NCBI RefSeq assembly: GCF_002020355.1
Contig: NZ_MPZV01000005.1
Coordinates: 124,001-188,000 of the forward strand
Direction of reading: 5' to 3'
DNA: 64,000 bases
Source of the DNA: Thioclava sediminum
Lineage (GTDB): Bacteria > Pseudomonadota > Alphaproteobacteria > Rhodobacterales > Rhodobacteraceae
Shown: piece by piece, positions 9,699 to 27,736 of the stretch
How the letters are laid out: the number at the start of each line of letters is the position of its first letter
Numbering within the stretch: position 1 is the first letter of the stretch
Notes under the pieces: generated by a model
What the model was told of the DNA's origin: nothing
The model's input: the letters and a program-made list of their open reading frames with translations, nothing else
Database searches by the model: none
Translations under genes and position numbers: made by a program

Positions 9699-9721
9699 CG
9701 GTTTGCCTTTCGAGGGGCGAA

Positions 9722-9736
9722 GGGCCGACACGGCCC
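9722..9736 (-). other. Short hairpin between TRAP receptor and small permease genes
   Basis: GGGCCG and CGGCCC form a six-base stem with a three-base loop between the receptor stop at 9760 and the small-permease start at 9698. There is no T-run. It may stabilise the receptor message or reduce read-through; this is inference. Confidence 0.3.
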
Positions 9737-9759
9737 CCCGCCCTCAGTGTGTCCGGGGG

Positions 9760-10752
9760 TCAGGCCTGGATCGCGTTGATCTGTTCGAGCATCCCCTCGG
9801 GCCAGCTCTTGGCGAAGTCGCTGGCGAGATACTTCTTCTGGGCGTAGTCCCGGAAAGCGGCGCGGTCGGGTTCGTAGACCTCGAGGCCCTGTTCCTTGAA
9901 GAAGTCCACCAGTTCCTGCTCGCGCTTGAGGTGCTCCTCGGTGCTGGCGGCGATTTCCTTGTCCACGGAGTCCTTCAGCAACTTCTGCTGATCGGCGCTC
10001 ATATCGTCCCAGACCTTCTTGGAGATACCAAGCACGTCGAAACCGACGAGGTGGCTGGTCAGGGCAATCTGGCTCGTGACCTCATAGAACTTCATGTTGT
10101 AGTCGTTCGGCAGCGGGTTGTCCTGACCGTCGATCGCCCCAGTCTGGAGCGCGGTGTAGACCTCGGAATAGGCCAGCGGCGTCGGGCTGGCGCCGATCGC
10201 CTCGCCAAGGAACTGCCACGCGTCGCCGCCCGGCATGCGCAGGGTCATCCCCTTCAGATCCTCGGGCGTGTTGATCTTCTTCTCGGGCTTCAGATTGACC
10301 TGACGCGCGCCGAAATAGACCGGCGCGAGGACATGGAGCCCGGCCTGCGCGGCGAGATCGTTCAGCTGCTTGCCCACGTCGCTGTCGAACACGGCTTTCA
10401 TATGGGCCGCATCGCGCAGCACATAGGCGGCGGTCAGGATCGACCATTCCGGCACCTGATCGGCCAGCTTCTGCGGCGCGACGAGGCCCATTTCCAGCGT
10501 TCCGCGCTGGATCGAGGTCAGTTCGCCCCCTTGGGGAACAAGCGTCGACTGGTTGTAGACCTGCAGGTCGAAATCCTTGGCGACATCCTCGGAAATGCGG
10601 GCGAAGGCCTTGGCGCGAATGTCGTTATTCGACACCACCGAAGACAGGCGGAGCCGTTTGCGATCTTGAGCGAATGCAGTGCCTGCCATCAGGGTCGCGG
10701 CTGCACCAGCGGCCCCTGTCGCCAGCACGCTGCGGCGAGTCAATTTGGTCAT
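9760..10752 (-). CDS. TRAP transporter periplasmic substrate-binding protein (DctP family)
   Basis: The protein has 330 residues. It starts with TKLTRRSVLATGAAGAAATL, a twin-arginine signal, and ends its leader near FAQDRK, so export by the Tat route is likely. The mature part has DctP-type signatures such as GARQVNLKPEKKINTPEDLKG and the substrate-carboxylate arginine in LRMPGG, followed by GAIDGQDNPLPN. The ATG at 10752 has GGGAGG before it; an upstream in-frame start at 10791 would bury the signal. It is the first gene of the transporter-quiC operon and downstream of a promoter candidate at 10823-10858. Confidence 0.92.
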   Translation of the reverse strand: MTKLTRRSVLATGAAGAAATLMAGTAFAQDRKRLRLSSVVSNNDIRAKAFARISEDVAKDFDLQVYNQSTLVPQGGELTSIQRGTLEMGLVAPQKLADQVPEWSILTAAYVLRDAAHMKAVFDSDVGKQLNDLAAQAGLHVLAPVYFGARQVNLKPEKKINTPEDLKGMTLRMPGGDAWQFLGEAIGASPTPLAYSEVYTALQTGAIDGQDNPLPNDYNMKFYEVTSQIALTSHLVGFDVLGISKKVWDDMSADQQKLLKDSVDKEIAASTEEHLKREQELVDFFKEQGLEVYEPDRAAFRDYAQKKYLASDFAKSWPEGMLEQINAIQA

Positions 10753-10822
10753 AGTTCCTCCCTTTCGCCGCATCGAGAGCGGCTCATTCAATTCGGCATC
10801 TCAAATTTCATATGTCAACTTT

Positions 10823-10919: not shown

Positions 10920-11606
10920 TCAGGGAACGCGACCGGTCGCCAGAATGTGGTCGACGCCGCTTTCGACATGGGAGATCAGCAACTCTACGGCCGCATCCGC
11001 ATCGCGGGCCAAGGTCAGGTCGCGCAGGCGAATGTGATCTTCCTTGGCCTTCTCGCCGCGGAATTCCAGAATGATCATGTGATAGCGCATGAAGCGATCG
11101 AAGACCGAAGAATGCGTGCGCATCAGGTTCGGCCTGTCGCACGCCGCGATCATCGCGAAGTGGAAATCCCAGTCGTGACGCACCCAAGGTTGCACCGGGC
11201 CGTCGCCGCCCGCGATCAGCTCGCGCTCGATCGTCTCCAGTTTGTAATGCGACGAGACGACCCCCGCCTCCCACTCGATATCGCCATTCGCGATGGACTG
11301 GCGCAGAGCGTGGGTCTCGAGCAGCAGACGCAGGTCGGCCAGATCCCGCAGGTCGGCCTTGCTGATCGGCGCCACCTCGAAGCCGCGTTGTCCTTCAGCG
11401 GTGACGAGCCCCTCATTCGTCAGGCTGCTGAGCAGTTCGCGCAGCGTCGTCACGCTGATATCGTATTTCTTGCGCAGCAGATCGAGCTTCAGCTTCTGCC
11501 CGGGTTTGAACCGCCCATGCACGATGTCGCCACGCAGGCGTCGGTGGGTGATGTCACCGACAGTCTCCCCGGGATGTCCACTGATATCGAACTTATGTAT
11601 CTTCAC
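10920..11606 (-). CDS. GntR-family regulator, FCD subfamily
   Basis: The protein has 228 residues. The N-terminal winged helix (about 18-80) contains RRLRGDIVHGRFKPGQKL and ISVTTLRELLSSLTNEGLV, the GntR signature. The rest is an all-helical FCD ligand domain with the metal-type residues DWDFHFAMIAA and a C-terminal HVESGVDH. The start is GTG at 11606; no strong ribosome site is visible. It is placed between the TRAP/quiC operon and the dioxygenase operon and transcribed in the same direction, so it may control either or both, with a pathway acid as ligand. Confidence 0.88.
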   Translation of the reverse strand: MKIHKFDISGHPGETVGDITHRRLRGDIVHGRFKPGQKLKLDLLRKKYDISVTTLRELLSSLTNEGLVTAEGQRGFEVAPISKADLRDLADLRLLLETHALRQSIANGDIEWEAGVVSSHYKLETIERELIAGGDGPVQPWVRHDWDFHFAMIAACDRPNLMRTHSSVFDRFMRYHMIILEFRGEKAKEDHIRLRDLTLARDADAAVELLISHVESGVDHILATGRVP

Positions 11607-13671: not shown

Positions 13672-14538
13672 TCACTCGGTCCGATGCAGCACGAAGTCGT
13701 AATTGGACTCCCACAGCGTCTCGCCGTTCTCGACCGGGGTGAACTCGGCGATCAGGGATTCCTTGACGCCGAACACCGCATCCGAGGTCAGGTATTTGTC
13801 GCCCGCCACGAAGGTATGGGTCGTCACCGGGTCGAAACCCTCGGCGCTCACGATGAAATGCATATGCGCGGGGCGATACGGGTGACGCCCGAGCTTGCCC
13901 AGCATCTTGCCCACCGGACCGTCGTCGGGGATCGGGTAGGAGACCGGCTTGATCCCCTCGAACCAGTAGCGCCCGTCCGGCCCCGTGGTGAACACGCCGC
14001 GATTGTTGTTGCACGGCTGAATGTCGGGCTGCTGAACGTCGTAGAAGCCGTCCTCGCTGTCCGACCAGACATCGATCCGCGCGCCTTCGACCGGATTGCC
14101 GTCGAGATCGGTGACGGTGCCATAGAAGCGGCAGGTCTCGCGCCCGCCCGCTTGTGTGATGTTCGCGCCCATCTCGTATTCCGGCACGCCATCGACATGG
14201 AACGGCCCGAGCACCGTGTTCTCGGTCGCCCCGGTCGGGCGGCGGTTGTTGATCGCATCGACCAGCATCGAGACGCCCAGCACGTCGGAAAGCAAGATGA
14301 ACTCCTGCCGGTTCTCGTCGCAGATCTGGCCGGTCTTGGTGAGGAAATCGATCGCGATATCCCACTCGGCTTGGGTTAGCTCGACGTCCTTCACGAAAGC
14401 ATGCAGGTGACGGACGAGGCTCGCCATCACGGTCTGGAGGCGCGCATCGGTGCTCTCCGAAACCCGGGCGTTGACGGTTTCGACCGAGGCGTCCTCGGTG
14501 AAATAGGCGATCTTCGGCTCTTGGGTCATGTCATTCAT
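13672..14538 (-). CDS. Intradiol ring-cleavage dioxygenase, probably hydroxyquinol 1,2-dioxygenase
   Basis: The protein has 288 residues. The ferric-iron ligands fit the family: Tyr166 (GFYDVQ), Tyr201 (SYPIPDDG), His225 and His227 (RPAHMHF), with Arg222 nearby. The N-terminal helical dimerisation region and NTVLGPFHVDGVPE (107-119) are typical of the catechol/hydroxyquinol 1,2 group, not of protocatechuate 3,4-dioxygenase. Maleylacetate reductase is the next gene upstream, which points to hydroxyquinol (1,2,4-trihydroxybenzene) cleaved to maleylacetate. An alternative ATG at 14529 has a better-spaced AGGA. Catechol as substrate cannot be excluded. Confidence 0.85.
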   Translation of the reverse strand: MNDMTQEPKIAYFTEDASVETVNARVSESTDARLQTVMASLVRHLHAFVKDVELTQAEWDIAIDFLTKTGQICDENRQEFILLSDVLGVSMLVDAINNRRPTGATENTVLGPFHVDGVPEYEMGANITQAGGRETCRFYGTVTDLDGNPVEGARIDVWSDSEDGFYDVQQPDIQPCNNNRGVFTTGPDGRYWFEGIKPVSYPIPDDGPVGKMLGKLGRHPYRPAHMHFIVSAEGFDPVTTHTFVAGDKYLTSDAVFGVKESLIAEFTPVENGETLWESNYDFVLHRTE

Positions 14539-14543
14539 TCCTA

Positions 14544-15608
14544 TCAGGTCGTGATGGGCCGCTGACCGGCATGGGCGCGGGTCAGCAGGTCGAGAATGCC
14601 GTCGCGCGTGATTTCGCGCGGGTTTTTGTAGGGGTTCTGGACGGCCATATCGGCGGCGCGCGCCAGATCGCTTTCCTTCAGGCCAAAGTCGGCCAGCGCG
14701 AGCGGGGCCCCGAGGGAGCGCGCGAAGTCGTAGAGTCCGCCACCCAGGTCGCCGTCGAACAGCTCGGTCGCGCGCGCCAGTTCGGCAGATGCCGCCCCGG
14801 CGTTATAGGCGGCGGTATGCGGCAACAGGATCGCGTGGGTCTCCGCATGGGGCATGTCGAACCCGCCACCGAGCGTGTGGCAAAGCTTGTGATGCAGCGA
14901 CATGGCGACCGCGCCCAGCACGGTGCCGCAGAGCCACGACCCGTAGAGCGCATCGGCGCGGGCTTCGCGATCCTCCGGCGTCTCGACGATCCGCGGCAGC
15001 GCCGATTTCAGCGCACGCACACCTTCGACCGCCATCAGCGAGGTGACGGGGTTCGCGTCGGGCGCGTAGAGCGCCTCGACCGCATGAGCCATTGCATTGA
15101 GGCCGCTCGCAACGCTCATCGCGACCGGCAGGCCCAGCGTCAAATCGGGATCGTAGATCACGGTTTCCGGGCGGATCTTGGGATCACGGACGGTCGTCTT
15201 CTGCCCGTTCTCGGTCTGCCCGAGAATATCGGTCACCTCGGAACCGGCATAGGTCGTCGCGATCACCACCTGCGGGGCGTCGTTGCGCCAGGCGATGGCC
15301 TTGCCCAGACCGATGGTCGAACCGCCGCCAAGCGCCACGACGCAATCGGCCTTGGTCTCGTTATAGACTTCGAGCGCGGCCTCGGTCACGGCGACCGGCG
15401 TGTGCATCGCAGCGTCGGTGAACGTTCCGGCCGCCATTTCCCCGAGCTTGTTCGCAAGCGCCTCGGCATCGGATTTCTGGAACGGCGTCGATAGGATCAG
15501 TGCACGGGCGCAGCCCAGTCTCTCCACCTCCTCGGCGACGTTCGCCAAGGTCTCGGAGCCAAAGACGATGCGCCCCGGAGTGGATGTGTAGATGAACGCT
15601 TCAGGCAT
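14544..15608 (-). CDS. Maleylacetate reductase
   Basis: The protein has 354 residues of the iron-type alcohol dehydrogenase fold, at the usual maleylacetate reductase length. GGGSTIGLGKAIA (about 94-106) binds the dinucleotide, and the C-terminal HHKLCHTLGGGFDMPHAETH holds the histidines of the active site. It reduces maleylacetate to 3-oxoadipate. The start has GGGAGG upstream and the stop is five bases from the dioxygenase start, so the two steps of hydroxyquinol degradation are encoded together. Confidence 0.9.
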   Translation of the reverse strand: MPEAFIYTSTPGRIVFGSETLANVAEEVERLGCARALILSTPFQKSDAEALANKLGEMAAGTFTDAAMHTPVAVTEAALEVYNETKADCVVALGGGSTIGLGKAIAWRNDAPQVVIATTYAGSEVTDILGQTENGQKTTVRDPKIRPETVIYDPDLTLGLPVAMSVASGLNAMAHAVEALYAPDANPVTSLMAVEGVRALKSALPRIVETPEDREARADALYGSWLCGTVLGAVAMSLHHKLCHTLGGGFDMPHAETHAILLPHTAAYNAGAASAELARATELFDGDLGGGLYDFARSLGAPLALADFGLKESDLARAADMAVQNPYKNPREITRDGILDLLTRAHAGQRPITT

Positions 15609-15668: not shown

Positions 15669-18200
15669 TTACTCCTCGCGGCGCCGACGCGCGGTCGTGT
15701 AGATGAGCGCCGCCACGAGGATCAGCACCCCCTGGAAGCCGTATTGGTAGGCCTGCGACAGACCGAGGAAGGACACGGCGTTGAGCACTTCGGTCAGAAG
15801 CACCGCGCCCAGCAGCGAGCCGATGAAGGTGCCGCGCCCGCCGAGAAGGCTGGTGCCGCCCAGCACGACCGCGGTGATGCTGCCCAGCGTGTAGTTCACG
15901 CCTTGCGCCGGATCGCCGACGCCGATCTGCGCCATCAGCATGATCGCACCAAGTGCGGTCAGCAGCGACACGGCGATATAGCCGAGCACGAAGGTCCGAT
16001 CCGTGCGTATCCCGATCCGCCGCGCGGATTCCTCATGCGAGCCGACAGCGCGAAGCTGCCACCCCGCCCGCTTGCGACGCAGGCCCAGCTCCATCGCGAT
16101 GGCGATCGCAATCATCACGACGAAGGCGACCGGCACGGGGCCGAAGCTGCGGGTGAGCGTGTCGATCACGTCGAAGGAGATGTAGCCGCCCGGACCTTCG
16201 CGCAGCACGAAGCTCATGCCCTGCAAACCGATGAACATCGCCAAAGTGGCTGCGATAGGCGTGAAATTGGCGAAGCGGATCAGCACGCCGTTGATCAAGC
16301 CGACGACGATCGCCGCGCCGAACATCAGCGCGAAACCGAGCGCCATCGTCGTGGCCGGGCTGCCATCGTTGATAAAGAAGGACCCGATCACGACGAGGAA
16401 ACCGGCGAGCGGCCCGACCGACAGGTCGATCCCGCCCATCAGCAAGGCGATGGTCTGCCCCAGGGCGATGAAGCCAAGCGCGGTGGCGAGGATCAGGATA
16501 TTCGAGACGTTGAAGGACGACAGGTAATTCTCGTTCTGCGCGCTTACGAACAGCGCGAGCAACACAGTCACCAGCGCAAGCGGCACGATCGTCGCGTTAT
16601 CGGTCTGCACGAAATGGCGCAGCTTCGCGCCGAAGCCCTCTTTCGCGCTCCGTTCCTCGGCCACGTGATGCGCATGCGTATCTGCCTCGACCGCAGCCCC
16701 CACGATACGGGCCTCGGTGATGTCGTCTCCGCGCAGGGTCTCGACGATGCGGCCCCGCGACATGACCAGAACGATGTCGCACAGCCCTTCCAGTTCCGCC
16801 GCATCCGAGGAGTTGACGATCACCGGGGTGCCCGCATCGGAGACTTCGCGCAGGATCCGGTAGATCTCGAAGCGCGCGCCGACATCGACGCCCTGCGTGG
16901 GTTCGTCGGCCACGATGAAGCCCGGCTCCGACAGAAGCGCGCGGGACATCACGATCTTCTGTTGATTGCCGCCCGAAAGCTGGGACACCTTCGCCTCGAC
17001 GCCCGCGGCCTTCACCGCCAACGACGAGAACACCTCCTGCACCTTCTGCATTTCCTTGCCGCGATCCAGCACGCCGCTCGAGGCATATTTGTCGAGCGAG
17101 GCGAAGGTCGCGTTTTCCCGGATCGTTAGATCCGCGGCGAGGCCTTCGGTATGGCGATCCGACGGCATGAAGGCCGCCGCGTGTTTCAGCTCTTTCGGCG
17201 AGAGGGTGCGACCATAGAGCTTGATCGCGCCGCGATAGGGCTGAAGGCCGACCAAGGCGCGCATCAGATCGGACTGGCCGTTACCCTCGACACCGGCGAC
17301 GCCAATGATCTGGCCGCGTCCGAAGGCGAAGGCCACATCCGAGAATTTGCGACCGCTGAGGCCTTCGACCTCGAAATTGATCGGGGGATTGGCCTCGGCG
17401 CATTTCGGCGGGAAGGCAGAGGCAAGACGGCGCCCGACGATCAGGTCCAGAAGCTGCGAATTGCTGATCTCGCTCGCCGGCGCGCTGCCCCGGTGGCGGC
17501 CATCGCGCAACACGGTCACGCGGTCCGCGATCTGACGCAACTCGGCGAGACGGTGGGTGATGTAGATGACGGCGGTGCCGGAGGCTTTCAGCGCCCGCAC
17601 CTTCGCGAAAAGCATATCCGTCGCGTCCTGATCAAGCGCGGCCGTCGGTTCATCCAGAATAAGCACACGGGGCTGGACGGCGAGCGCCTTAGCCAATTCC
17701 AGCAGGTGTTTCTGCGCGATGGTCAGGGTATCGACACGCGCGTTCAGCGGCACCTCGAGGCCGACCTCTTCCAGCAGACGCTGGCCGACGCGGTCCTTGC
17801 GGTCGCCCTGGAAGACAGAGGCAGGCAGCGAGACCTGCAGGTTCTCGAGCACCGTCATGTCGGGCAGGATCGCCGGGTGCTGATAGGAGATCGCGACGCC
17901 AAGCGCCGACGAGCTTTCCGGCGAGAGCGGCATCACGTCCCGCCCATCGAATTCGATCCGGCCGGTGCTGGGCTGCAGAACGCCGGTGATCAGGTTCATC
18001 AGGGTCGATTTCCCGGCCCCGTTCTCACCCAGGATCGCGTGCACTTCGCCCGCGTGAATGTCGACGCTCACGTCGCTCAGGGCGCGGACCGCCCCGAAGG
18101 ATTTCGACACGCCGCGCAAGCGGATCACGGGGGTGCCCGTTGACGTTTCGCGGAGCCCGTCCGCCTTCTCCATCGGTTCGATTTCAGCCAATGCTATCAT
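15669..18200 (-). CDS. CUT2 sugar ABC transporter: ATPase fused to permease
   Basis: The protein has 843 residues. The N-terminal half is RbsA-like with two ATPase domains: first Walker A GENGAGKST (58-66) and Walker B LILDEP (180-185) with a weak signature (TIAQKHLLELA); second with degenerate Walker A GVEGNGQSD (303-311), signature LSGGNQQKI (408-416) and ADEPTQGVD (431-439). From about 530 onwards it is an RbsC-like permease with eight or more membrane helices (GGIDLSVGPLAGF, LGGTSLLGGRGT). Most CUT2 systems keep these as separate proteins. With the separate permease and binding protein upstream it forms a complete importer. Confidence 0.88.
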   Translation of the reverse strand: MIALAEIEPMEKADGLRETSTGTPVIRLRGVSKSFGAVRALSDVSVDIHAGEVHAILGENGAGKSTLMNLITGVLQPSTGRIEFDGRDVMPLSPESSSALGVAISYQHPAILPDMTVLENLQVSLPASVFQGDRKDRVGQRLLEEVGLEVPLNARVDTLTIAQKHLLELAKALAVQPRVLILDEPTAALDQDATDMLFAKVRALKASGTAVIYITHRLAELRQIADRVTVLRDGRHRGSAPASEISNSQLLDLIVGRRLASAFPPKCAEANPPINFEVEGLSGRKFSDVAFAFGRGQIIGVAGVEGNGQSDLMRALVGLQPYRGAIKLYGRTLSPKELKHAAAFMPSDRHTEGLAADLTIRENATFASLDKYASSGVLDRGKEMQKVQEVFSSLAVKAAGVEAKVSQLSGGNQQKIVMSRALLSEPGFIVADEPTQGVDVGARFEIYRILREVSDAGTPVIVNSSDAAELEGLCDIVLVMSRGRIVETLRGDDITEARIVGAAVEADTHAHHVAEERSAKEGFGAKLRHFVQTDNATIVPLALVTVLLALFVSAQNENYLSSFNVSNILILATALGFIALGQTIALLMGGIDLSVGPLAGFLVVIGSFFINDGSPATTMALGFALMFGAAIVVGLINGVLIRFANFTPIAATLAMFIGLQGMSFVLREGPGGYISFDVIDTLTRSFGPVPVAFVVMIAIAIAMELGLRRKRAGWQLRAVGSHEESARRIGIRTDRTFVLGYIAVSLLTALGAIMLMAQIGVGDPAQGVNYTLGSITAVVLGGTSLLGGRGTFIGSLLGAVLLTEVLNAVSFLGLSQAYQYGFQGVLILVAALIYTTARRRREE

Positions 18201-18275: not shown

Positions 18276-19343
18276 TTACTGGCCGACGGCCTTCGCCTGC
18301 TCGTCACCCGAAAGCTGAGCAGAGAGATAGATCGCGCCGGGCAGATCCGAGCGACACTGGACGGGGTTGGGATCCCCATCGGTCGAGTCCTCGAAGTTCG
18401 GAGCCTTGAAGATTTCTTCCGACGGCGGGGTGCCACCGGTCGCTTCTGCGATCGCCCATTGCACGGCGAGACGAACGTTGTCGTTGCCGGTCGCGACCGT
18501 GAAGAGCTTGAAATCAGGGTTGTCCGCGTGGGTCTTCTCCCAGAAGCAGCCGAGCGAGTTGCCGTCGGACGTCGCGAGCGCCGGGATCGAGCGGTCGAAA
18601 TTCGCGAACACCGGCAGAGCGCCCACGAGCGACGGACCGAAGTCGGACACGATGACGTCGATATTGTCATGCTGCGCGATGGCGGCCGACAGCACCTGCT
18701 GCGTCAGGGACGGATCCCAGTTGGTGACCGCGAAGGGGTCCGGGTTCAGGAACTTGTAGCTGTCGTCGAGGATGTTCTTCATCCCCTTGAGCTCGTCCAG
18801 ACCCTGGCTGTTGCCCGCCGGGCCCGACAGGAACAGGATGTTCGCGCCGTCCGGGAAGTTCTCCTTGATCCACTTGCCCCAGCTTTCGCCATCATAGACG
18901 AAGTCGGCACCGACGAAGCGGGTGTAGTTCTTGCCAGCCTCACCGCCAACATTCACGCGGTAGGGCACGACGACCGCGCCGGAGCGATAGGCTTTGGTCA
19001 ACGCGGGCAGGATTGCCGGGCCGGCATCGCCGAAGACGACCATCGCGTCGACACCGCGCGCCGCCATCGAGTTGATGTCGGAGATCGCCTTCTGCGTGTC
19101 GCCCTGACCGTCGGCATAGTAGTAGTCGGTGATGCTCGGACACTTCGCGGCTTCCTCCTTGCCCGAAGCGGTCGTCACCAGACGCCAGCTATTGCCCCCG
19201 AAACCGTCGAGCAGCGCCAGCGAGGCTTTGTTCGGGCCGCACCAGGAGGGTGCGTCCTCTGCGCTGGCCGCCGAGGCCGAAAGGGCAATTCCAAGCCCCA
19301 GCGCCATATAGGCAGCGCATCCTTTCAGGTTAGACAGTTTCAT
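18276..19343 (-). CDS. Periplasmic sugar-type substrate-binding protein (RbsB-like)
   Basis: The protein has 355 residues. The leader LKGCAAYMALGLGIALSASAASAED is a Sec signal with an ASA-type cleavage site. The mature part has the two-lobed PBP type 1 pattern (SISDINSMAARGVDAMVVFGDAG-like helix-strand pairs, GPAGNSQGLDELKG, DVIVSDFG). An AGGAGGAG stretch precedes the ATG. Its start overlaps the end of the permease gene by 14 bases. The substrate cannot be read from sequence; neighbouring dehydrogenases suggest a polyol, cyclitol or phenolic glycoside. Confidence 0.85.
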   Translation of the reverse strand: MKLSNLKGCAAYMALGLGIALSASAASAEDAPSWCGPNKASLALLDGFGGNSWRLVTTASGKEEAAKCPSITDYYYADGQGDTQKAISDINSMAARGVDAMVVFGDAGPAILPALTKAYRSGAVVVPYRVNVGGEAGKNYTRFVGADFVYDGESWGKWIKENFPDGANILFLSGPAGNSQGLDELKGMKNILDDSYKFLNPDPFAVTNWDPSLTQQVLSAAIAQHDNIDVIVSDFGPSLVGALPVFANFDRSIPALATSDGNSLGCFWEKTHADNPDFKLFTVATGNDNVRLAVQWAIAEATGGTPPSEEIFKAPNFEDSTDGDPNPVQCRSDLPGAIYLSAQLSGDEQAKAVGQ

Positions 19344-20358
19344 GGTTCTCCTCCTCTGTAGAACTTGTCTGTTCTTTCTTGAAACGGGTCGTCCATTCGA
19401 TCGAGTAGACCCCGATGCCGAATACAAGAGCGAGCGCCTGCACGATGGTCTGCGCCGAGTAAGGCACACCGATCGACAGAGCGAACTGGCTGAGCTGATT
19501 GAGAAAGAAGGCGGCGATCACGACCGAGATCGGAAAGCCGCGCCCTCCCAGAAGCGATGTCCCTGCCAGCACCACGACGGCGACCGAGGGCAGAAGCAGG
19601 CTGTTGCCCTGAAATGCCGTGGGTTCGCGGGTGATCCCTGCGATCAGGATGCCCGCGGTGCAGTAAAGGATCTGCGCCGCCACATAGGCCATCGCCTGAT
19701 AGGGTTTGACGCTCAGCCCCGCCGCGCGGGCCGCCTTGGGATTGGCCCCGATCGCCTCGAAGCGACGGCCAACCACCGTCTTTTTCAGGCCGAAGGACAC
19801 GAGGGCCAGAATGGCGAGTGCGAACAGCACCGAATGGGGAATACCCAGGGTCTGACCGCCCGCGATATGGGCCAGCAAGTTCGTCGTGATCCGCGGCACG
19901 CCGCCCGAGATCGCGAAGACAGCCGAGAACAGAAGCGCGTTCATTCCGATGGTCGCGACGATCGCGTTCAGGCGGAAATAAGCGACCATGATGCCATTGA
20001 GCACCCCCGCGGCGAGCGCGAAACCGACCGCGATAATAAGTGCAGGCAGAAGTCCCGCATCCTGGCCATTGGGCATGTGGGTCGCGATCACCACCGCGAG
20101 CGATACCGAGCCCGGCACCGACAGATCGAAGCCGCCCTGCTGCACCACCAGCATCTGGCCGAGCCCGACGATGCCAAGCACCGCCGCGAAAGGCAGGCTG
20201 CCCATCAGCGACCCGGCGGTGACCGCCGAGGGTGCGAAGATGATGCAAAGGAGGATGAGCGCCAGCGTCGAGGCGACGATGGTCACGAAGCCCTTCGACA
20301 GGGACATCGAAGAAAGTCCCATCGAACCTCCGAAGCTATGCGGCGTCGTCTCAGCCAT
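19330..20358 (-). CDS. CUT2 sugar ABC transporter permease (RbsC-like)
   Basis: The protein has 342 residues with about ten hydrophobic segments and the RbsC signatures GGFDLSVPGSVSLA, GRRFEAIGANPKAARAAG and LAGTSLLGGRG. It should pair with the permease half of the fused ATPase-permease as a heterodimer. The ATG has GGAGGAGG upstream. Gene order on the minus strand is permease, binding protein, fused ATPase-permease, all within one probable transcript that begins at the oxidoreductase genes. Confidence 0.9.
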   Translation of the reverse strand: MAETTPHSFGGSMGLSSMSLSKGFVTIVASTLALILLCIIFAPSAVTAGSLMGSLPFAAVLGIVGLGQMLVVQQGGFDLSVPGSVSLAVVIATHMPNGQDAGLLPALIIAVGFALAAGVLNGIMVAYFRLNAIVATIGMNALLFSAVFAISGGVPRITTNLLAHIAGGQTLGIPHSVLFALAILALVSFGLKKTVVGRRFEAIGANPKAARAAGLSVKPYQAMAYVAAQILYCTAGILIAGITREPTAFQGNSLLLPSVAVVVLAGTSLLGGRGFPISVVIAAFFLNQLSQFALSIGVPYSAQTIVQALALVFGIGVYSIEWTTRFKKEQTSSTEEENHETV

Positions 20359-20386: not shown

Positions 20387-21367
20387 TCAGCTGATTTCCA
20401 AGGTGACCTTGACCGCCTTGTCGGGCGACTTGCCCAGATCCAGCGCGGTCATCGCGTCATCAATCTTGTAGCTGTGGGTCTGGATCGGCGAGAGATCGAG
20501 CCCGGTGCGTTCCAGGAACCGGATCGCCGCCGGCCAGACGCCGGGCGAGCCGATGCAGCCTTTCACGTTGAGGTTCTTGATCTGGATCTTGCCCAGCTCG
20601 ACCGGGAATTTCTGGCCGATATTGATGCCGACCATCGAGACATCCCCGTCGTCGCGGGCATAGTCGAAGACATTGGCCAGCGAGGCCGGATGGCCCGCGC
20701 ATTCGACCACCAGATCGGCGCCGCCCTTGGTCATCTCCTGCACCGCTTCGATCGGATCGCCGTCGGTCGGATCGATCGTGCCGTCCGCACCGAGCTTCAT
20801 CGCGATCTCGCGGCGCAGCGGCACCGGGTCGACCACGATCACGCGGGCGCCCATGCCGATCGCGGCAGCAGCCGAGACGAGGCCGATCGTGCCGCCGCCC
20901 GAGACGACGACCGTATCCGCCGCGCAGACGCCACCATGGCGCAGCACCGCGTAATAACCGCAGGTGAAGGGTTCGATCAGCGCGCCTTTCGCGTCGTCCA
21001 CCGCATCGGGCAGCTTGTGCAGCCATTCGGGACGTGCCGCGAAGAATTCGCGATCCGCACCGTCCATCGAGAAGCCGAAGTGGTGGATACGCTCGGGCGT
21101 GTTGATCACGCATTCGCCGACCACACGATCGCCGGGCTTGAGCCCGTCGACATTCTTCCCGACCTCGACGACTTCGCCGACCCATTCGTGGCCCGGAACG
21201 ACCGGATAGGAAATCGGGATGATGTATTGACCGGCCAGCAGCTCGTAATCCGAGTGGCAAATCCCGACGCGGCGCGACTGGATTAGCACCTCGTTGTCCG
21301 TGATGCCGGGCGTCTGCACCTGCGTCACGATGGGCTTGTTCGGTTCGTCGAAGATCAGGGCTTTCAT
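20387..21367 (-). CDS. Zinc-type medium-chain alcohol dehydrogenase
   Basis: The protein has 326 residues. Catalytic zinc ligands are visible in GICHSD (Cys37) and GHEW, and the Rossmann site is SGGGTIGLV with VVDP at the end of the second strand, favouring NAD. The four-cysteine lobe of the structural zinc is missing (VINTPERIHHFGF stands there), so it is a single-zinc enzyme, as in several sorbitol/polyol dehydrogenases. It is one base away from the Gfo/Idh/MocA gene, which suggests paired oxidations of one substrate. Confidence 0.82.
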   Translation of the reverse strand: MKALIFDEPNKPIVTQVQTPGITDNEVLIQSRRVGICHSDYELLAGQYIIPISYPVVPGHEWVGEVVEVGKNVDGLKPGDRVVGECVINTPERIHHFGFSMDGADREFFAARPEWLHKLPDAVDDAKGALIEPFTCGYYAVLRHGGVCAADTVVVSGGGTIGLVSAAAAIGMGARVIVVDPVPLRREIAMKLGADGTIDPTDGDPIEAVQEMTKGGADLVVECAGHPASLANVFDYARDDGDVSMVGINIGQKFPVELGKIQIKNLNVKGCIGSPGVWPAAIRFLERTGLDLSPIQTHSYKIDDAMTALDLGKSPDKAVKVTLEIS

Positions 21368-21368
21368 G

Positions 21369-22403
21369 TCAGGCTCCAACTTTCGCTGCGGCGGGTTGCG
21401 CCACGCGTTCGATTTGACCGCTGCGGGAGGAGGCGAAGACCGCCTCGAGCAGCGCGATATTGTCGACCAGATGATCGGCGGTGATCGGGTAGGTTTCCTG
21501 TCCGCGCACGGCGCGGGCGAAACTCACCAGGTTGTCCTTCACGGGCTCGGCCTTGCCGATCTCGACGGTCTCGATCGGCCCGCCAGCCATAGCCGAGGTG
21601 ACGATCCAGCCATCCGGCGCCTCGACATGCGCCTTGTCGCGGATGTCGATCCAGCCTTTCGAGCCATAGACCGTGAAGCGGGACATGAACGGGTTCGACA
21701 GAGAAGCCGACACGTAGGAGGTCCCTCCCCCGGCGAATTTCACATAGGCCGCGACCGTGTCGCCCTGCGGCAGTTCCGAAGACAGCTGCTCGCAGATGCA
21801 CAGCACGCTTTCCGCGCGGCCCAGAAGGCGGACCGACAGATCGAGCAGGTGAATGCCCGTCGCGGTCATGCCGCCTGCGGGTGCTTCGCTCGCCTGAACG
21901 CGCCAGTTGCTCGGGTCCATGCCGACGAACTTGTCGTGGCTGAAATTGGCCTCGATCTGCTGGATACGGCCCAGCTCTCCTGCATCGGCCTTCGCCAGCA
22001 TCTCGGCGATCGGCGGCTCCCAGCGGCGCTCGTGGCCCATGCCGAGAACCAACCCGGCCTCGGCGCAAAGCGCGACCGAACGGGCGGCTTCTTCGGCGGT
22101 GAGTGCGAGCGGCTTTTCGCAGAAGACATGTTTGCCTGCCGCGACCGCCTTGGCGATCTGATCCGTGTGCAGAGAGTGCGGCGTCGCCAGCACGACAGCC
22201 TCGACCTCGGGATCGTTCAGCGCATCGGCGTAATCCGCGCTGAGAGTCACGCCTTTCTCGGCGCAGAGATCGCGCACCCCGTCCATGTTCGGCTCCACCG
22301 CGCGGACGACCGTGATGTCGTCGGGGGCGCTCGACAGAACGGCGAGCATCTTCTGCCCCCACCAACCCATGCCCACAAGGGCGATTTTTACCGGCCCCGA
22401 CAT
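21369..22403 (-). CDS. Gfo/Idh/MocA-family oxidoreductase
   Basis: The protein has 344 residues. The N-terminal Rossmann domain has VGMGWWGQKM and the family EKP motif in HVFCEKPLAL; the C-terminal domain has the GGMTATGIHLLDL segment where the catalytic Asp/His lie. Such enzymes oxidise sugar, inositol or glycoside hydroxyls with NAD(P). The start overlaps the YciI-like gene by one base. Cyclitol or glycoside oxidation is a reasonable guess given the neighbours. Confidence 0.85.
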   Translation of the reverse strand: MSGPVKIALVGMGWWGQKMLAVLSSAPDDITVVRAVEPNMDGVRDLCAEKGVTLSADYADALNDPEVEAVVLATPHSLHTDQIAKAVAAGKHVFCEKPLALTAEEAARSVALCAEAGLVLGMGHERRWEPPIAEMLAKADAGELGRIQQIEANFSHDKFVGMDPSNWRVQASEAPAGGMTATGIHLLDLSVRLLGRAESVLCICEQLSSELPQGDTVAAYVKFAGGGTSYVSASLSNPFMSRFTVYGSKGWIDIRDKAHVEAPDGWIVTSAMAGGPIETVEIGKAEPVKDNLVSFARAVRGQETYPITADHLVDNIALLEAVFASSRSGQIERVAQPAAAKVGA

Positions 22404-22687
22404 CAGCGGTTATCCACGCGCTTGGAGAACGGACGGATCGAGACGGACTTCCACAGACCGACCTTCGCGAAGGGGTCGTTGCGGTTGAACTCTTCGACCT
22501 CGGCGAGGCTGTCGGCCTCCAGGACGAAGCAGCTGCCGATCATGGTCTCTTCGTCGTCGCCCAGAAGCGGGCCCGAAATCACCGTTTTCACCGGTGCCTG
22601 GGCCAGATAGGCCTTGTGGTCCTCGTAATTGGCCAGCCGCTTATCGACGGCGCCGTCATGGTCGAGGCAATGGATTACGTAATGCAT
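22403..22687 (-). CDS. YciI-like dimeric alpha-beta barrel protein
   Basis: The protein has 94 residues. MHYVIHCLDHDGAVDKRLANYEDHKAYL and the later FVLEADSLAEVEEFNRNDPFAKVGLW match the YciI/ferredoxin-fold family, including the buried His and Asp pair near the N-terminus. Members are small enzymes such as chloromuconolactone dehalogenase. In this operon it could be an isomerase, lyase or dehydratase for a ring intermediate. The exact reaction is unknown. Confidence 0.8.
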   Translation of the reverse strand: MHYVIHCLDHDGAVDKRLANYEDHKAYLAQAPVKTVISGPLLGDDEETMIGSCFVLEADSLAEVEEFNRNDPFAKVGLWKSVSIRPFSKRVDNR

Positions 22688-22697
22688 CTCAGTCTCC

Positions 22698-23771
22698 TCA
22701 CTTCGCCGGGATGATCTTGCGTTCGCGCAGCTCTTCGAAGACGTCGAAGAAGCTGTCGGGCGTGCTCTGATAGGCGTCGAAGCCCAGCTTCCGGCTGTTG
22801 GTCATATCGGTGAAGCATTCCAGCTCGCGGCCGAGATCGGCGTCGCTGTGCCACCACGAGGCGAGCTTGGTCACAGGGATGTCCTGCAGCCCATATTGAG
22901 CCACCATCTCCGACCAGATTGCGGGCGCATCCGCCATCTGCTCTTCGAGCGGCGTCGTGTGACCGGGGTATTCCGCGACCTCGAGGCCGAAATACTCGGC
23001 GATCCGCGCCCAGAGCCACGTCCAGCGGAAGACATCGCCATTTGCGGTGTTGAAGGGTGTGTTCGCAGCTTCCGGCGTCGTCGCGGCCCAGTAGAACTGT
23101 TTGGCGAGGATGCGCGCATCGGTCACATCGGTGACCGCGTTATATTGCTCGGGCGAACCGGGATAGAGGAACGGCTTGCCGGTGTGCTTGCAGATCGAGG
23201 CATAGACCGCGAGCGTCACTGCCATGTTCATGTAGTTGCCGACGGTAAAGCCGATCATCGTGTGCGGGCGGTGCACCGACCAGGTGAAGCCGTATTTCTC
23301 GGCCATCTCCAGCAGCACATCTTCCTGCGCGTAGTAGAAGTTCGGCCCCGGCAGACGCGGGCTCGACTCGAGGAAAGGCGTGTAGGGCGTGACCTTGGCG
23401 TAGTCGTCGAACGAACCGAGGTAATGCTTGAGGCCCGTCACCAGCGCGCCGTGCTTGATCGGCGCGCCTGCGATGCCCTCGAAGAGGTTGCGCACCATCA
23501 TCCCGTTCACGCGGACGTTCTCTTCCTCGTTGGCCTGACGCGACCAGGTGCAATAGAACACATGCGTCACGTCCTTGGCCGCAGCCAGCGCGGCCTTGCT
23601 GGCTTCCGCATCGGTCAGGTCTGCGGCAATGTGCCGGTCGGACCACTCGAGATCGACATCGCTGCGCGACACCGTCACAACCGTCCAGCCGTGAGATTTC
23701 AATTCGCGCGCGGTGTAGCTGCCCGAGAGGCCGGTCGCCCCGACAATCAACGCAATATTCTGTTCAGCCAT
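22698..23771 (-). CDS. PRISE-type enone reductase (progesterone 5-beta-reductase/iridoid synthase-like SDR)
   Basis: The protein has 357 residues, an extended SDR. VGATGLSGSYTARELKSHGW is the nucleotide site, and VTVSRSD with an arginine after the second strand suggests NADPH. VTGLKHYLG and NFYYAQEDVL carry the family Lys and Tyr, as in plant progesterone 5-beta-reductases and their bacterial relatives. These reduce activated carbon-carbon double bonds. Placement among dehydrogenases suggests reduction of an enone intermediate. Confidence 0.8.
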   Translation of the reverse strand: MAEQNIALIVGATGLSGSYTARELKSHGWTVVTVSRSDVDLEWSDRHIAADLTDAEASKAALAAAKDVTHVFYCTWSRQANEEENVRVNGMMVRNLFEGIAGAPIKHGALVTGLKHYLGSFDDYAKVTPYTPFLESSPRLPGPNFYYAQEDVLLEMAEKYGFTWSVHRPHTMIGFTVGNYMNMAVTLAVYASICKHTGKPFLYPGSPEQYNAVTDVTDARILAKQFYWAATTPEAANTPFNTANGDVFRWTWLWARIAEYFGLEVAEYPGHTTPLEEQMADAPAIWSEMVAQYGLQDIPVTKLASWWHSDADLGRELECFTDMTNSRKLGFDAYQSTPDSFFDVFEELRERKIIPAK

Positions 23772-23804: not shown

Positions 23805-24872
23805 TCAGGTGGTGACGAGAATTTTCAGATGTTCCCCGGCAGGATCGAGAAGCGCCTCGAAGCCCTTGTCGACGACATCTTCCGCCGCGATCCGCGAGGT
23901 GATGACTTTCTCGATCGGGAAATTGCCCGAGGCGACCATGCGGCCGATCCGGGGCCAGATTTGCGTCGGGTAGCACCAGGTCGCTTCGACCGAGATGTCC
24001 TTGAGCGCCCAGAGCATCGCATCGATGCTGGCGGGTTTCATGTGCAGCCCCACCTGCACGACCTTGCCCTGGCGGCGCACCGCTTCGGCGCAGGCGTTGA
24101 GCGAGGCTTCGAGCCCGACACATTCAAGCGCGACATCGACGCCGACGCCCTCTTCGGTCAGATCGCCGACGACGGTCGGCAGCTCGCCGCTGCGCGGGTC
24201 GACGACATGCGCATAGGGCGCGATTTCCGAGATGATCCGGCGACGGTTCGGGTTCGGCTCCGACACGATGATCGTGCTCGCACCCGCCGCCCGGGCCGAC
24301 AGCACCGTCAGCGCACCGATCGGACCGGCACCCGAGACAAGAACGGTCGAGCCCGCCTCGACGCCGCCGCGATCCACGCCGTAAAGCGCAACCGCAGCCG
24401 GCTCGATCATCGCGGCCTGGTCATCCGTCAGCCCCTCGGGCACGGATTGCGCGTTGTAATCCTTGATGACGGCTTTCTCGCCCATGCCGCCCCAGGCCCA
24501 GCTCAGGCCGATGCAGCCCAGTTGCGGCGAGAGGTGATAGAGGCCGCGCTTGCCATAGTAGTCATTGCGCGGCGCCACGAGAGGCTGAACCGAAATGCGC
24601 TCGCCGACCGAGACATTGCTGACCTCGTCGCCCACTGCGAGAACCTTGGCGGAGAATTCATGGCCAAGAATCTGCGGGTTGGACGCGCCAGTATAGATAT
24701 GCGGTTCGGACGGGGTGACGATCGGCCCCGCGATATATTCGTGAAGATCGGTGCCGCAGATGCCGGTCACGATCGGCGCGACCAGAACGTCATCCGGCGC
24801 CAGTTTGCTCGACGGTTCTTCGACATCCTCGACGCGGATGTCCTTCGCTCCGTGAAAACGAACAGCTTTCAA
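23805..24872 (-). CDS. Zinc-type dehydrogenase, 2,3-butanediol/sorbitol dehydrogenase-like
   Basis: The protein has 355 residues and starts with TTG: GGGAGG stands seven bases upstream, and the resulting MKAVRFHGAKDIRVEDV is a textbook family N-terminus. GICGTDLHEY, LGHEF and the Rossmann motif SGAGPIGAL are present. The second-strand end reads VSEPN with following arginines. It is the first gene of the minus-strand operon, divergent from the hydroxyisobutyrate-dehydrogenase-like gene. The substrate is a secondary alcohol, not identifiable further. Confidence 0.85.
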   Translation of the reverse strand: MKAVRFHGAKDIRVEDVEEPSSKLAPDDVLVAPIVTGICGTDLHEYIAGPIVTPSEPHIYTGASNPQILGHEFSAKVLAVGDEVSNVSVGERISVQPLVAPRNDYYGKRGLYHLSPQLGCIGLSWAWGGMGEKAVIKDYNAQSVPEGLTDDQAAMIEPAAVALYGVDRGGVEAGSTVLVSGAGPIGALTVLSARAAGASTIIVSEPNPNRRRIISEIAPYAHVVDPRSGELPTVVGDLTEEGVGVDVALECVGLEASLNACAEAVRRQGKVVQVGLHMKPASIDAMLWALKDISVEATWCYPTQIWPRIGRMVASGNFPIEKVITSRIAAEDVVDKGFEALLDPAGEHLKILVTT

Positions 24873-25004
24873 AGCTTTTCCTCCCTTTCCAAGTCTCGCG
24901 ATCCTCTGGGTCTGCCGGGATCACCCCGACATCGAGATCGCCATTTGGCTGCGACGATTCGTAACAAACCAATCCGGCCATCACTGCAGAAAAATTTCCG
25001 CTTC

Positions 25005-25019
25005 GGATAAATTACATCC
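25005..25019. promoter_or_regulatory. Dyad in the divergent promoter region 24873-25076
   Basis: GGAT and ATCC arms flank an AT-rich centre in the 204-base gap between two divergent operons. It is the only clear dyad I noticed in that gap and is a candidate operator for the winged-helix fusion regulator encoded at 25994. Short arms make chance occurrence possible. Confidence 0.25.
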
Positions 25020-25076
25020 ATCACCACCGTTTTGGCGACGTAATGTCGGCCCAACACATAAGTGGGAGATATAAGC

Positions 25077-25997
25077 ATGAGCCAGACCCAGGTGGCAGAC
25101 ACTGATCAGATCGATACGCAGCAGACGCTTGGCTGGATCGGCGTGGGCAAAATGGGCGGCCCCATGGCGCGCAACCTCGTAGCGAGTGGCGCGAAACTTC
25201 TTGTCTCCGATCCGGCGAAGGACAGTCGCGATCGGCTGACCGCATTGGGCGCATCCGAGGCCGCGTCGATCTCGGACTTTGCTAATGCGGGTATCGTCTT
25301 CTCGACGCTGCCGAACGATCAGGCTTTGCTGGATGTCGTCGGCAATGGCGAAGACGCAGGCCTCGCAACCACCTTGCCCGCGGGCGCGACGCTGGTCGAG
25401 ATGAGCACAGTCTCCCCCGAATGCTCCGAAAGCGTTGCGAAGGTTCTCGCAGCCAAGAAAATCAACTATGTCAGAGCGCCGCTTTCCGGCAGCACAGACA
25501 TGGCGGCGAGTGCCGCGCTCACCGTGCTCGCCTCGGGCGACCGCGAGGGCTGGGACGAAGCGCTCCCCTACATCCGCAAACTCTCTGCACGGCAATTTTT
25601 CCTCGGAAATGGCGAAGAAGCGCGCTACATGAAGCTCGTTTTGAACACTCTGGTCGGCGCCTCTTCCGCGGTGCTCTCCGAAGCCTTGGCCATAGGCGCC
25701 AGCGGCGGCCTGACCCGAGCCGATATGATGGATGTAATTTGCGAAAGCGCAGTGGCCTCGCCGCTGTTCAAATATAAGCAGAAGCCGGTCGTCGAAGATG
25801 ACTTCACGCCCGCTTTCACAGTGTCTCAGATGATCAAGGACTTCACGCTCATCAGCGAAGCCGCCCGACGCAACAGCGTGCCGCTGATGACAACCGGCCT
25901 GATCCTCGAGCTTTATAGAAGCGCCTCGAACGCGGGTATGCAGGACGAAGATTTCTTCGCATTGGTGAAATGGCAGGAAAAGTTGTCGACAAGATGA
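25077..25997 (+). CDS. 3-Hydroxyisobutyrate dehydrogenase-like oxidoreductase
   Basis: The protein has 306 residues from the ATG at 25077 (GGGAG upstream; an in-frame GTG at 25062 is possible). The Rossmann motif is WIGVGKMGGPMARNL, the usual DVSGS-type substrate loop is APLSGSTDMAASA, and the catalytic lysine sits in YMKLVLNTLVG. These define the beta-hydroxyacid dehydrogenase family. Its 3' end overlaps the start of the fusion regulator gene, so the two are co-expressed. The substrate may be a tartronate-semialdehyde-like or ring-derived hydroxy acid. Confidence 0.85.
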   Translation: MSQTQVADTDQIDTQQTLGWIGVGKMGGPMARNLVASGAKLLVSDPAKDSRDRLTALGASEAASISDFANAGIVFSTLPNDQALLDVVGNGEDAGLATTLPAGATLVEMSTVSPECSESVAKVLAAKKINYVRAPLSGSTDMAASAALTVLASGDREGWDEALPYIRKLSARQFFLGNGEEARYMKLVLNTLVGASSAVLSEALAIGASGGLTRADMMDVICESAVASPLFKYKQKPVVEDDFTPAFTVSQMIKDFTLISEAARRNSVPLMTTGLILELYRSASNAGMQDEDFFALVKWQEKLSTR

Positions 25998-27736
25998 AAT
26001 TGGCGGAGCAGCATTCGGAGGCTATGCAACCTCAGGATGCTGAACTCACAAGTCACGAGTTGTCCCGGATCGTCGATTTCCTCCGGCAGCTTCGTGCGCC
26101 TTTCGACGCGAACATGCCCGGTGGCAAACCGGACGTGTATTTCAACATCACACTCGAACTGGTCGATGCGCATCTGCGCGTGAACCCGATAGACAAGTCG
26201 GGCCTGATCAGCCTCGCCGATGTGCCCTACAGCACCGGCAACCGGATGATCCTGAAGATGATTGAGGACGGCCTGATCCGGCAGGTGCCGCGCGGCAACG
26301 GCCTGAAGACGCATTTCCTCGAACCCTCCGACACCCTGCTCAACACCTTCATGGACTACGCGAGCTACGTGAAGGGGCACCTGGCGAAGACCTTCGGTTT
26401 GCGGCGCGGGATGGAGACCAGCGAATACTATTTCGGCGGCAGCTATTTCGCCTCGCAGATCATCTCCCCCGTACGCGGGGAGGACATCTCCTCGATCAAC
26501 CTTGGCGATATCAAGTTCCTGCTGAACGACGACAACTACTTCATCGCGATGCGCAATATGTGGTCCGACTTCCGCAACGATTTCGGCAAGCGCAGCAGCT
26601 TCGATCTTCAGCGTCTGCCAGACCTTTATGCCAACACGCGGCGCACCCTTTCGGAAATGTCGCCGTGCTATGACGTCGTCGCGATGAACATGCCGTGGCT
26701 CGGGGAATTCGCGGAGCGTGGGGAGCTCGCCCCGCTGGACGATCTGATCTCGGATGCCGCGATCAACGCGCTGGATTTCCATCCTTCGGTCTGGGGGACC
26801 GGCAACTGGAAAGGGACGCAATACGGCATCCCGCTCTATTGCACGATCGAGATTCTCGCGGCCCGCAAGGATTTGTTCGAGAGCCGCGGCCTCGCCTATC
26901 CAAAGACCTTCGACGAGACGATCGCCGCCGCGCGGGAATTCCATAACCCGCAGGACGACTTCTACGGCATCGCGTGGAACGGTCAGCGCGGCATGCCCAT
27001 CGCGAACTCCTTCATGTTCTTCCTCGCGGCCTGCCGGACTACCGTCATCGACATGCCGCTGCGCAATCAGGAGAGCTGGAGCTTCGACACGTTCGAGAAG
27101 CTGAAGCTTCAGATCGACACCGAAGACGCGCTCGAAGTGATCGAATACATGAAGCAGCTCGTCGAGGTGTCGCCCCCCGACATCGCGACGATGGATTGGG
27201 AACGGCGGATCCACTACTTCATGTCGGGTCAGACCGCGCTTGCCTATTGCTGGACGATGCGCGCGGCGCGCTTCGAGCATGAGCTGAGCTCTCGGGTGGC
27301 ACGACGTGTCGCCTACCTGCCCCCACCGTCGCGCCGGATGCGTCGCGTGTCGGCCCCGATCGGCGGCTTCCTTCTGACGATCCCCGCCTATGTGGAGCCC
27401 GCGCGGCAGAAGCAGATCATCGATGCAATCGCATGGATGGTCTCGCCCGAGGCGATGAAAGAGCACGTAAAGAACGGCTTCCCCGTGGCTCCGCGCTTCT
27501 CGGTCTGCGCCGACCCGGAGGCGCTGGCCTCCTCGCCCATCGTCAGCATGGTCGACCGGATGGCGCGCAAGAACGAGCTGGTGACCTGGGCGCGCCCGCC
27601 GGTGCCGGAATTCAACCTGATCGAACGCACGCTCGGGGAAGAAATCCACGACATCGTCTTCAACGGAAAATCGCCCCAACGCGGCCTGAGAGACGCGGAG
27701 AACCGAATTCTCGACGCCGTCCGATCCGCGGGCTGA
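25994..27736 (+). CDS. Winged-helix domain fused to a MalE-like solute-binding domain
   Basis: The protein has 580 residues from the ATG at 25994, which overlaps the previous stop as ATGA; another ATG at 25970 is possible. Residues 45-135 form a winged helix of MarR-like type (LADVPYSTGNRMILKMIEDGLIRQV, then a beta wing). From about 170 to 560 the sequence is a type 1 extracellular solute-binding protein (YDVVAMNMPWLGEFAERGEL, YGIPLYCTIEILAARKDLFE, MSGQTALAYCW, GGFLLTIPAY). There is no signal peptide or membrane helix, so it should stay in the cytoplasm. I infer a transcription factor sensing a sugar-like inducer of the divergent ABC/oxidoreductase operon. Confidence 0.75.
   Translation: MKLAEQHSEAMQPQDAELTSHELSRIVDFLRQLRAPFDANMPGGKPDVYFNITLELVDAHLRVNPIDKSGLISLADVPYSTGNRMILKMIEDGLIRQVPRGNGLKTHFLEPSDTLLNTFMDYASYVKGHLAKTFGLRRGMETSEYYFGGSYFASQIISPVRGEDISSINLGDIKFLLNDDNYFIAMRNMWSDFRNDFGKRSSFDLQRLPDLYANTRRTLSEMSPCYDVVAMNMPWLGEFAERGELAPLDDLISDAAINALDFHPSVWGTGNWKGTQYGIPLYCTIEILAARKDLFESRGLAYPKTFDETIAAAREFHNPQDDFYGIAWNGQRGMPIANSFMFFLAACRTTVIDMPLRNQESWSFDTFEKLKLQIDTEDALEVIEYMKQLVEVSPPDIATMDWERRIHYFMSGQTALAYCWTMRAARFEHELSSRVARRVAYLPPPSRRMRRVSAPIGGFLLTIPAYVEPARQKQIIDAIAWMVSPEAMKEHVKNGFPVAPRFSVCADPEALASSPIVSMVDRMARKNELVTWARPPVPEFNLIERTLGEEIHDIVFNGKSPQRGLRDAENRILDAVRSAG

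Follow-up and report, generated by a model that had tools for sequence, protein, structure and literature searches.

The sensors of LacI-type regulators are of the RbsB type, and the Bacillus subtilis protein Btr joins a cytoplasmic, siderophore-binding binding-protein domain to an AraC head. MarR proteins are short and sense their ligand inside the same fold that carries the DNA-binding helices. The nearest described design to the one reported here is that of SgrR in Escherichia coli and DsvR in Vibrio cholerae, transcription factors linked to carbon metabolism in which, according to PMC13060122, an N-terminal helix-turn-helix is followed by an SBP_bac_5 domain. SgrR works with the small RNA SgrS, and PMC4021124 describes it as an activator of sgrS, setA, and alaC. 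In passages of PMC5882156 the term "solute-binding domain" does not appear.

We analyzed 64,000 nucleotides of a Thioclava sediminum contig (the window) that encode a fusion of a MarR-like winged helix and a MalE-type solute-binding domain (Table 1). We consider it very probable that this protein is a one-component regulator that captured a MalE-type sensor and controls a catabolic operon of the polyol or cyclitol type, including a ring-cleavage dioxygenase. Like SgrR and DsvR, it combines a DNA-binding head with a solute-binding domain, but its sensor belongs to SBP_bac_1 rather than SBP_bac_5: in Pfam the window protein matches only SBP_bac_1 and SBP_bac_8, with no match to SBP_bac_5, and SgrR_N is found neither in its N-terminal half, which has no Pfam match at E ≤ 1, nor among the 25 Pfam families listed, out of 34, for the 62 members of the family alignment. 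With LacI and GalR it shares the pairing of a DNA-binding head with a sugar-binding-protein fold, but here the head is a winged helix and the sensor is of the MalE type; a Pfam search at E ≤ 1 found no LacI head in the protein, no Peripla_BP_1 (whose Pfam title names LacI), and no Peripla_BP_3. The preliminary description of this DNA had called a MalE-type sensor inside a regulator an unusual design, and unusual it is, but with SgrR and DsvR as precedent it is not unheard of. The principle is thus already known, and what is new, as far as we found, is the combination together with its candidate operator and regulon: searches of the openly licensed literature found no account of an SBP_bac_1 sensor joined to a MarR-like head, of the candidate operator, or of the regulon. 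If our reading is correct, the RbsB type in LacI and SBP_bac_5 in SgrR are joined by another binding-protein fold that has come to serve a gene switch as its sensor.

TABLE 1 Features of the window discussed in the text, with positions counted along the whole stretch
Feature	Coordinates	Strand	Basis
Fusion gene, winged helix plus MalE-type (SBP_bac_1) domain, 588 aa	25970..27736	+	ORF, Pfam, AlphaFold2, Foldseek
MarR-like winged-helix domain, residues 25-150	26042..26419	+	Model, Foldseek, MarR_2 matches
MalE-type binding domain, about residues 180-588	26507..27733	+	Pfam SBP_bac_1/SBP_bac_8, Foldseek 5iai
NAD(P)-dependent dehydrogenase, hydroxyisobutyrate type, first in the unit of the fusion gene	25062..25997	+	Pfam NAD_binding_2, NAD_binding_11
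Conserved palindrome, probable operator, three departures from AATTTATCCG-N3-CGGATAAATT	24991..25013	.	Consensus of 23 near loci
Zn-dependent dehydrogenase that heads the divergent run	23805..24872	-	Pfam ADH_N, ADH_zinc_N
PRISE-type SDR	22698-23771	-	
YciI-like protein	22403-22687	-	Likeness to an L001 protein matching YCII
Gfo/Idh oxidoreductase	21369-22403	-	
Zn dehydrogenase (second)	20387-21379	-	
RbsC-type permease	19330-20358	-	Pfam BPD_transp_2
RbsB-type binding protein	18276-19469	-	
Rbs-type ABC ATPase-permease, one 843-aa frame	15669-18200	-	ABC_tran and BPD_transp_2 in one protein
Fe-type dehydrogenase	14544-15608	-	Rhizobium and Aminobacter relatives annotated as maleylacetate reductase
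Intradiol dioxygenase	13672-14538	-	
SDR and ketopantoate-reductase-like protein	Run end at about 11793	-	Sequence reading, likeness to annotated relatives
GntR-like regulator, outside the run at its distal end	10920-11606	-	Read from frames
TRAP-type transporter genes, outside the run at its distal end	9165-10791	-	Read from frames

The fusion gene and its two domains

The fusion gene occupies a single frame that is open and uninterrupted throughout. Translation could begin at 25970, 25994, or 26024, and the ATGs that are retained vary among relatives, with strong conservation setting in at about residue 30. The start at 25994 given in the preliminary description is the ninth codon of the ORF from 25970 and is still a possible start, though the frame opens earlier. 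Comparison with the 99% identical protein of Thioclava sp. JE_KL1 (L027) revealed 71 synonymous and 3 nonsynonymous codon differences among 588 codons. The fusion is one frame under purifying selection, and the open frame, the recurrence of the architecture in relatives, and the excess of synonymous changes all speak against a frameshift having joined two separate genes. The genome from which the window comes holds a single full-length copy, and the only other match there (E 2.9e-7, residues 234-494) lies inside a 460-aa frame.

The second half of the protein is a complete type 1 solute-binding domain, as had been described from the sequence alone. It is matched by Pfam SBP_bac_1 over residues 232-496 (E 9.3e-19, 69 bits against a cut-off of 26) and by SBP_bac_8 (E 2.7e-17), and a sequence comparison with solved structures placed the sugar-binding protein 5iai nearest (E 2.6e-33, residues 187-577). 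An AlphaFold2 model of the whole protein, built with 62 family sequences, reached a mean pLDDT of 80.9 and contains two well-predicted parts, the winged helix at about 28-143 and the binding domain, separated by a low-confidence linker, mostly residues 143-176. Foldseek searches with the second half returned type 1 sugar-binding proteins, with 5iai again the best (E 2.7e-27, TM-score 0.87 over the target). The molecule name of another sensor relative, 4rya, includes "Sorbitol."

Pfam (at E ≤ 1) and NCBIfam gave no match to the N-terminal half of the window protein, and that half was therefore assigned through family alignment, modeling, and fold search. Residues 25-150 modeled alone reached a mean pLDDT of 91.4, and the model has the element order of a winged helix (H4-24, H32-45, H52-59, H63-75, two strands, and H97-118). 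Its best Foldseek match was the MarR regulator 7kfs (E 2.6e-4), with 6 matches at E ≤ 0.001, and MarR-family proteins predominate among the 50 matches listed. The resemblance to MarR thus extends to a winged-helix head with flanking helices, to weak Pfam matches in the family, and to a partial superposition with TM-scores of only about 0.4-0.6 and rmsd values of 6-13 Å, figures which imply that the core agrees while the placement of the flanking helices does not; unlike a MarR protein, however, the 588-aa window protein carries a separate sensor of about 400 residues after the head. MarR_2 was matched at E ≤ 1 by 42 of the 62 family members (best 1.4e-5), the window protein not among them, and no MarR family model matched the window protein above its cut-off. 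R92 is present in every one of the 62 alignment rows. The preliminary description, which had proposed one gene joining a winged helix to a type 1 binding domain and had staked this on domain searches and structure prediction, is therefore upheld by the predicted folds of both halves, with the profiles silent on the first and its winged helix modeled at high confidence.

The protein has no hydrophobic leader, in agreement with the earlier statement that it lacks a signal peptide: within its first 60 residues the best 17-residue Kyte-Doolittle mean is 0.17, compared to 1.4-1.9 in seven exported binding proteins drawn from plasmid loci. Across the family the median is 0.85 and the maximum of 1.5 (L044) overlaps the exported range, so hydropathy alone is no proof for every member. 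The predicted structure and the missing leader together place a DNA-binding domain and a sensor domain in one cytoplasmic protein, in which the MalE-type domain, for want of a signal peptide, is predicted not to be exported.

These features bear directly on the public annotation, under which the protein would be the exported binding protein of an ABC transporter, oddly extended at its N terminus. The full binding-protein fold of the second half is compatible with such a role, and among the 33 listed plasmid records in which query coverage reaches at least 80%, 26 bear the label "extracellular solute-binding protein"; the absence of a leader, the well-predicted winged helix, and the fact that the adjoining Rbs-type transporter owns an RbsB-type binding protein nevertheless make export extremely improbable. 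No MalF/MalG-type partner permeases were found beside the fusion gene, where the adjoining permease is of the BPD_transp_2 (Rbs) type. A role as a transporter subunit was likewise set aside, since there is no leader and the local transporter is of a different type. Among the relatives, L008 does have a Ugp-type transporter upstream.

Distribution of the family

Two peptide patterns scanned over the genome contigs of 84,980 species recovered 358 relatives, and the analysis covered the 80 best of them. All but one of these 80 match from residue 54 or earlier through the C-terminal end; in the remaining one, L072, the match is restricted to residues 192-586. The family alignment consists of 61 of the 80 relatives and the window protein (62 sequences), the 19 exclusions being near-duplicates, L043 and L054 (in which a stop was met in a quick reading of the start), and L072, whose N-terminal half is unmatched. 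Plasmid records contributed 669 matches, 34 of them with coverage of 80% or more, and these 34 include at least one, H33 (23% identity over residues 112-588), that is possibly an ordinary binding protein.

A profile of the winged helix matched 62 of 292 genomes at the level of the order, and 54 of these genomes contained the 69 strong matches (E ≤ 1e-24). Of the strong matches, 68 lie in open frames of at least 582 aa and the last in a frame of 320, with the 10 weak matches falling in frames of 140-267. At the level of the class, 33 of 289 genomes matched, with 9 strong (E ≤ 1.6e-26, frames of 564-641) and 30 weak matches, and at the level of the phylum 41 of 397 genomes matched, with 9 strong matches, one of which is outside the class (G698). 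The fusion architecture recurs across the Alphaproteobacteria and is an established family. Annotated members mostly bear the names of secreted transport proteins, so that a regulator family appears to be hidden behind a wrong label.

Among the 30 weak matches from the class, 12 were read and 6 were domain-scanned, and all 6 of the latter are Response_reg proteins that end in a winged helix, with MarR_2/HTH_27 matches that pass the cut-off in L114 and fall short of it in the other five. These proteins (L106, L108, L109, L110, L114, and L116) are alphaproteobacterial response regulators whose C-terminal winged helix resembles that of the fusion. They use a homologous winged helix as their output, but at the opposite end of the protein and with a phosphorylation receiver domain as the input, and the head of the fusion is thus a domain that serves elsewhere as a regulatory output.

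Neighboring genes and the candidate pathway

The run that diverges from the dehydrogenase-regulator unit starts at 24872 and continues on the reverse strand to about 11793, and the preliminary description had correctly placed the fusion gene in a unit with a dehydrogenase gene and opposite an ABC transporter and oxidoreductase operon. Gene order beside the regulator is conserved in Loktanella and other Rhodobacterales, and in Rhizobium the dioxygenase and the reductase are located among the dehydrogenases. In a more distant clade, which includes Phaeobacter, Marinovum, and Pacificitalea, the same type of regulator diverges from an Rbs-type transporter that is accompanied by very different catabolic genes.

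The best NCBIfam models for the oxidoreductases of the run, all far below their cut-offs, were scyllo-inosose 3-dehydrogenase for one of the Zn dehydrogenases and, for the Gfo/Idh oxidoreductase, inositol 2-dehydrogenase; for the other Zn dehydrogenase threonine dehydrogenase ranked first and scyllo-inosose 3-dehydrogenase third, again far below cut-off. The gene content between 11793 and 24872 suggests degradation of a polyol or cyclitol via an aromatic intermediate. An attractive but unproved route is one in which a cyclitol is oxidized to an aromatic triol whose ring is then opened by the dioxygenase of the run, and no description of this pathway was found in the openly licensed literature. 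Given that sugars and polyols are the ligands of related sensor domains, and given the NCBIfam models of the dehydrogenases, the ligand would probably belong to the polyols, cyclitols, or sugars, and to judge from the neighborhood the inducer may be either the transported compound or a product. The sensor domain could therefore help to identify the compound that these operons degrade.

A palindrome upstream of the fusion gene

In 23 near loci, alignment of the intergenic region between the divergent units revealed a single conserved block, whose best form is AATTTATCCG-N3-CGGATAAATT with a core of TATCCR-N3-YGGATA. In the window this palindrome falls within 24873-25076, the segment for which the preliminary description had proposed DNA binding, and it offers a candidate site there. 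A promoter scan of 24800-25150 found no sigma-70-like site around it.

We defined an upstream stretch of 60-1400 bp before the fusion gene, which makes up about 7% of the locus sequence. In the 66 loci outside the consensus set, all best 23-bp sites fell within this stretch in 36, one of several tied best sites did so in 12 more, and neither was the case in 18; the 48 loci with a best site upstream, alone or tied, include more distant clades with other neighbors. For the core, a pattern selected after site inspection and counted over loci that share kinship and are not independent, the 90 loci contain 31 exact copies, where first-order simulations predict 0.0, and 85 copies when up to one mismatch is allowed, where they predict 3.0. 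Upstream stretches contain 65 of these 85 sites, distributed across 57 of the 90 loci, and the other 33 loci include close relatives in which the site is visible only by the longer consensus. No convincing site was found in L040-L042, L048, L063, L065, or L067. For a 19-bp form, likewise chosen after the sites had been inspected, all best sites lay within the upstream stretch in 63 of 88 loci. L010, an ordinary exported binding protein, was excluded from the motif counts, and L072 is included in the 90-locus core counts and the 89-locus GntR count given below but absent from the 88-locus and 66-locus counts.

Whole genomes of eight relatives contained an exact 17-bp form nine times, each time inside a fusion locus, compared to zero for a reversed-pattern control, with two genomes having none; these genomes were picked from fusion loci, mostly with good sites, and the result speaks to specificity rather than presence. 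In the genome of the window, exact copies of the 19-bp form occur once, at 24991-25013, and those of a 15-bp form twice, at that site and inside a mechanical frame. With one mismatch allowed, the 15-bp form occurs 86 times versus 92 for the reversed control and the 19-bp form 2 times versus 3, so for this genome weight can be given solely to the exact, conserved copy. Across changed neighborhoods the palindrome stays with the fusion gene.

Another regulator, such as the GntR-like protein encoded past the far end of the run, might own the palindrome while the fusion does something else, and similar GntR-like genes do occur in L004, L030, and L090. These are, however, only 3 of the 89 loci, a weak test given that most loci reach about 9 kb and the copy in the window is 14 kb away, and the palindrome is common to clades whose common element is the fusion gene, which makes this assignment very unlikely.

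We hypothesize that the fusion protein itself is the regulator, and that its MarR-like heads, probably dimeric, bind the palindrome separating the unit of dehydrogenase and regulator from the transporter-plus-dehydrogenase run. The MalE-type clamshell would close on a polyol-, cyclitol-, or sugar-like compound, either imported or made by the run, and its closure would alter DNA binding. By likeness to MarR, our first guess is that the ligand would relieve repression: the MarR family consists mostly of repressors, and sites between divergent units are common for repressors. Activation, with the ligand-bound protein recruiting polymerase as SgrR does, is a reading to which we give appreciable but lesser credence; SgrR, the nearest design, is an activator, and with no sigma-70-like site near the palindrome its position leaves the sign unsettled, but the head resembles MarR. 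The palindrome provides a concrete, testable regulon.

Among the 23 loci of the more distant set for which pair spacing was determined (L004-L007 and L074-L092), sites with at most two mismatches gave 27 spacings, of which 12 were 21 bp, 6 were 83-85 bp, and 5 were 103-106 bp, with 6, 22, 62, and 156 bp once each, though the pairs are not independent (104 = 21 + 83). The recurring values are near whole helical turns, which suggests that dimers may sit on one face of the DNA. We tentatively extend these findings to a broader proposal, about which we remain rather doubtful, of a widespread and, to the extent of our searches, undescribed alphaproteobacterial family with a cytosolic MalE-type sensor and, in one clade, helically phased operators (21, 83-85, and 103-106 bp), whose Thioclava-type clade would control an uncharacterized route from a cyclitol or polyol to an aromatic triol and on through the dioxygenase of the operon.

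The loci with paired palindromes upstream of the fusion gene are L006, L075-L078, L081-L083, L085-L087, and L091; the pairs are mostly exactly 21 bp apart, and some are accompanied by another site at a distance of about 83 bp. In several loci, sites also stand in front of catabolic genes that have been relocated: 63 bp (L058) and 83 bp (L066) before a ketopantoate-reductase-like gene, between a binding protein and a maleylacetate-reductase-like gene (L068), between the dehydrogenase and a YciI-like gene (L074 and L008), and 340 bp before a set of SDR-led genes (L039). Some sites in L003, L034, L035, L038, and L055 fall within frames or have no clear target, and the left-end sites of L053, L055, L058, and L066, which lie 3' of the last visible gene, were rejected as promoter sites and left uncounted. 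A permease frame starts about 0.5 kb beyond the distant site in L053 and about 0.35 kb beyond that in L047, an arrangement that is only suggestive.
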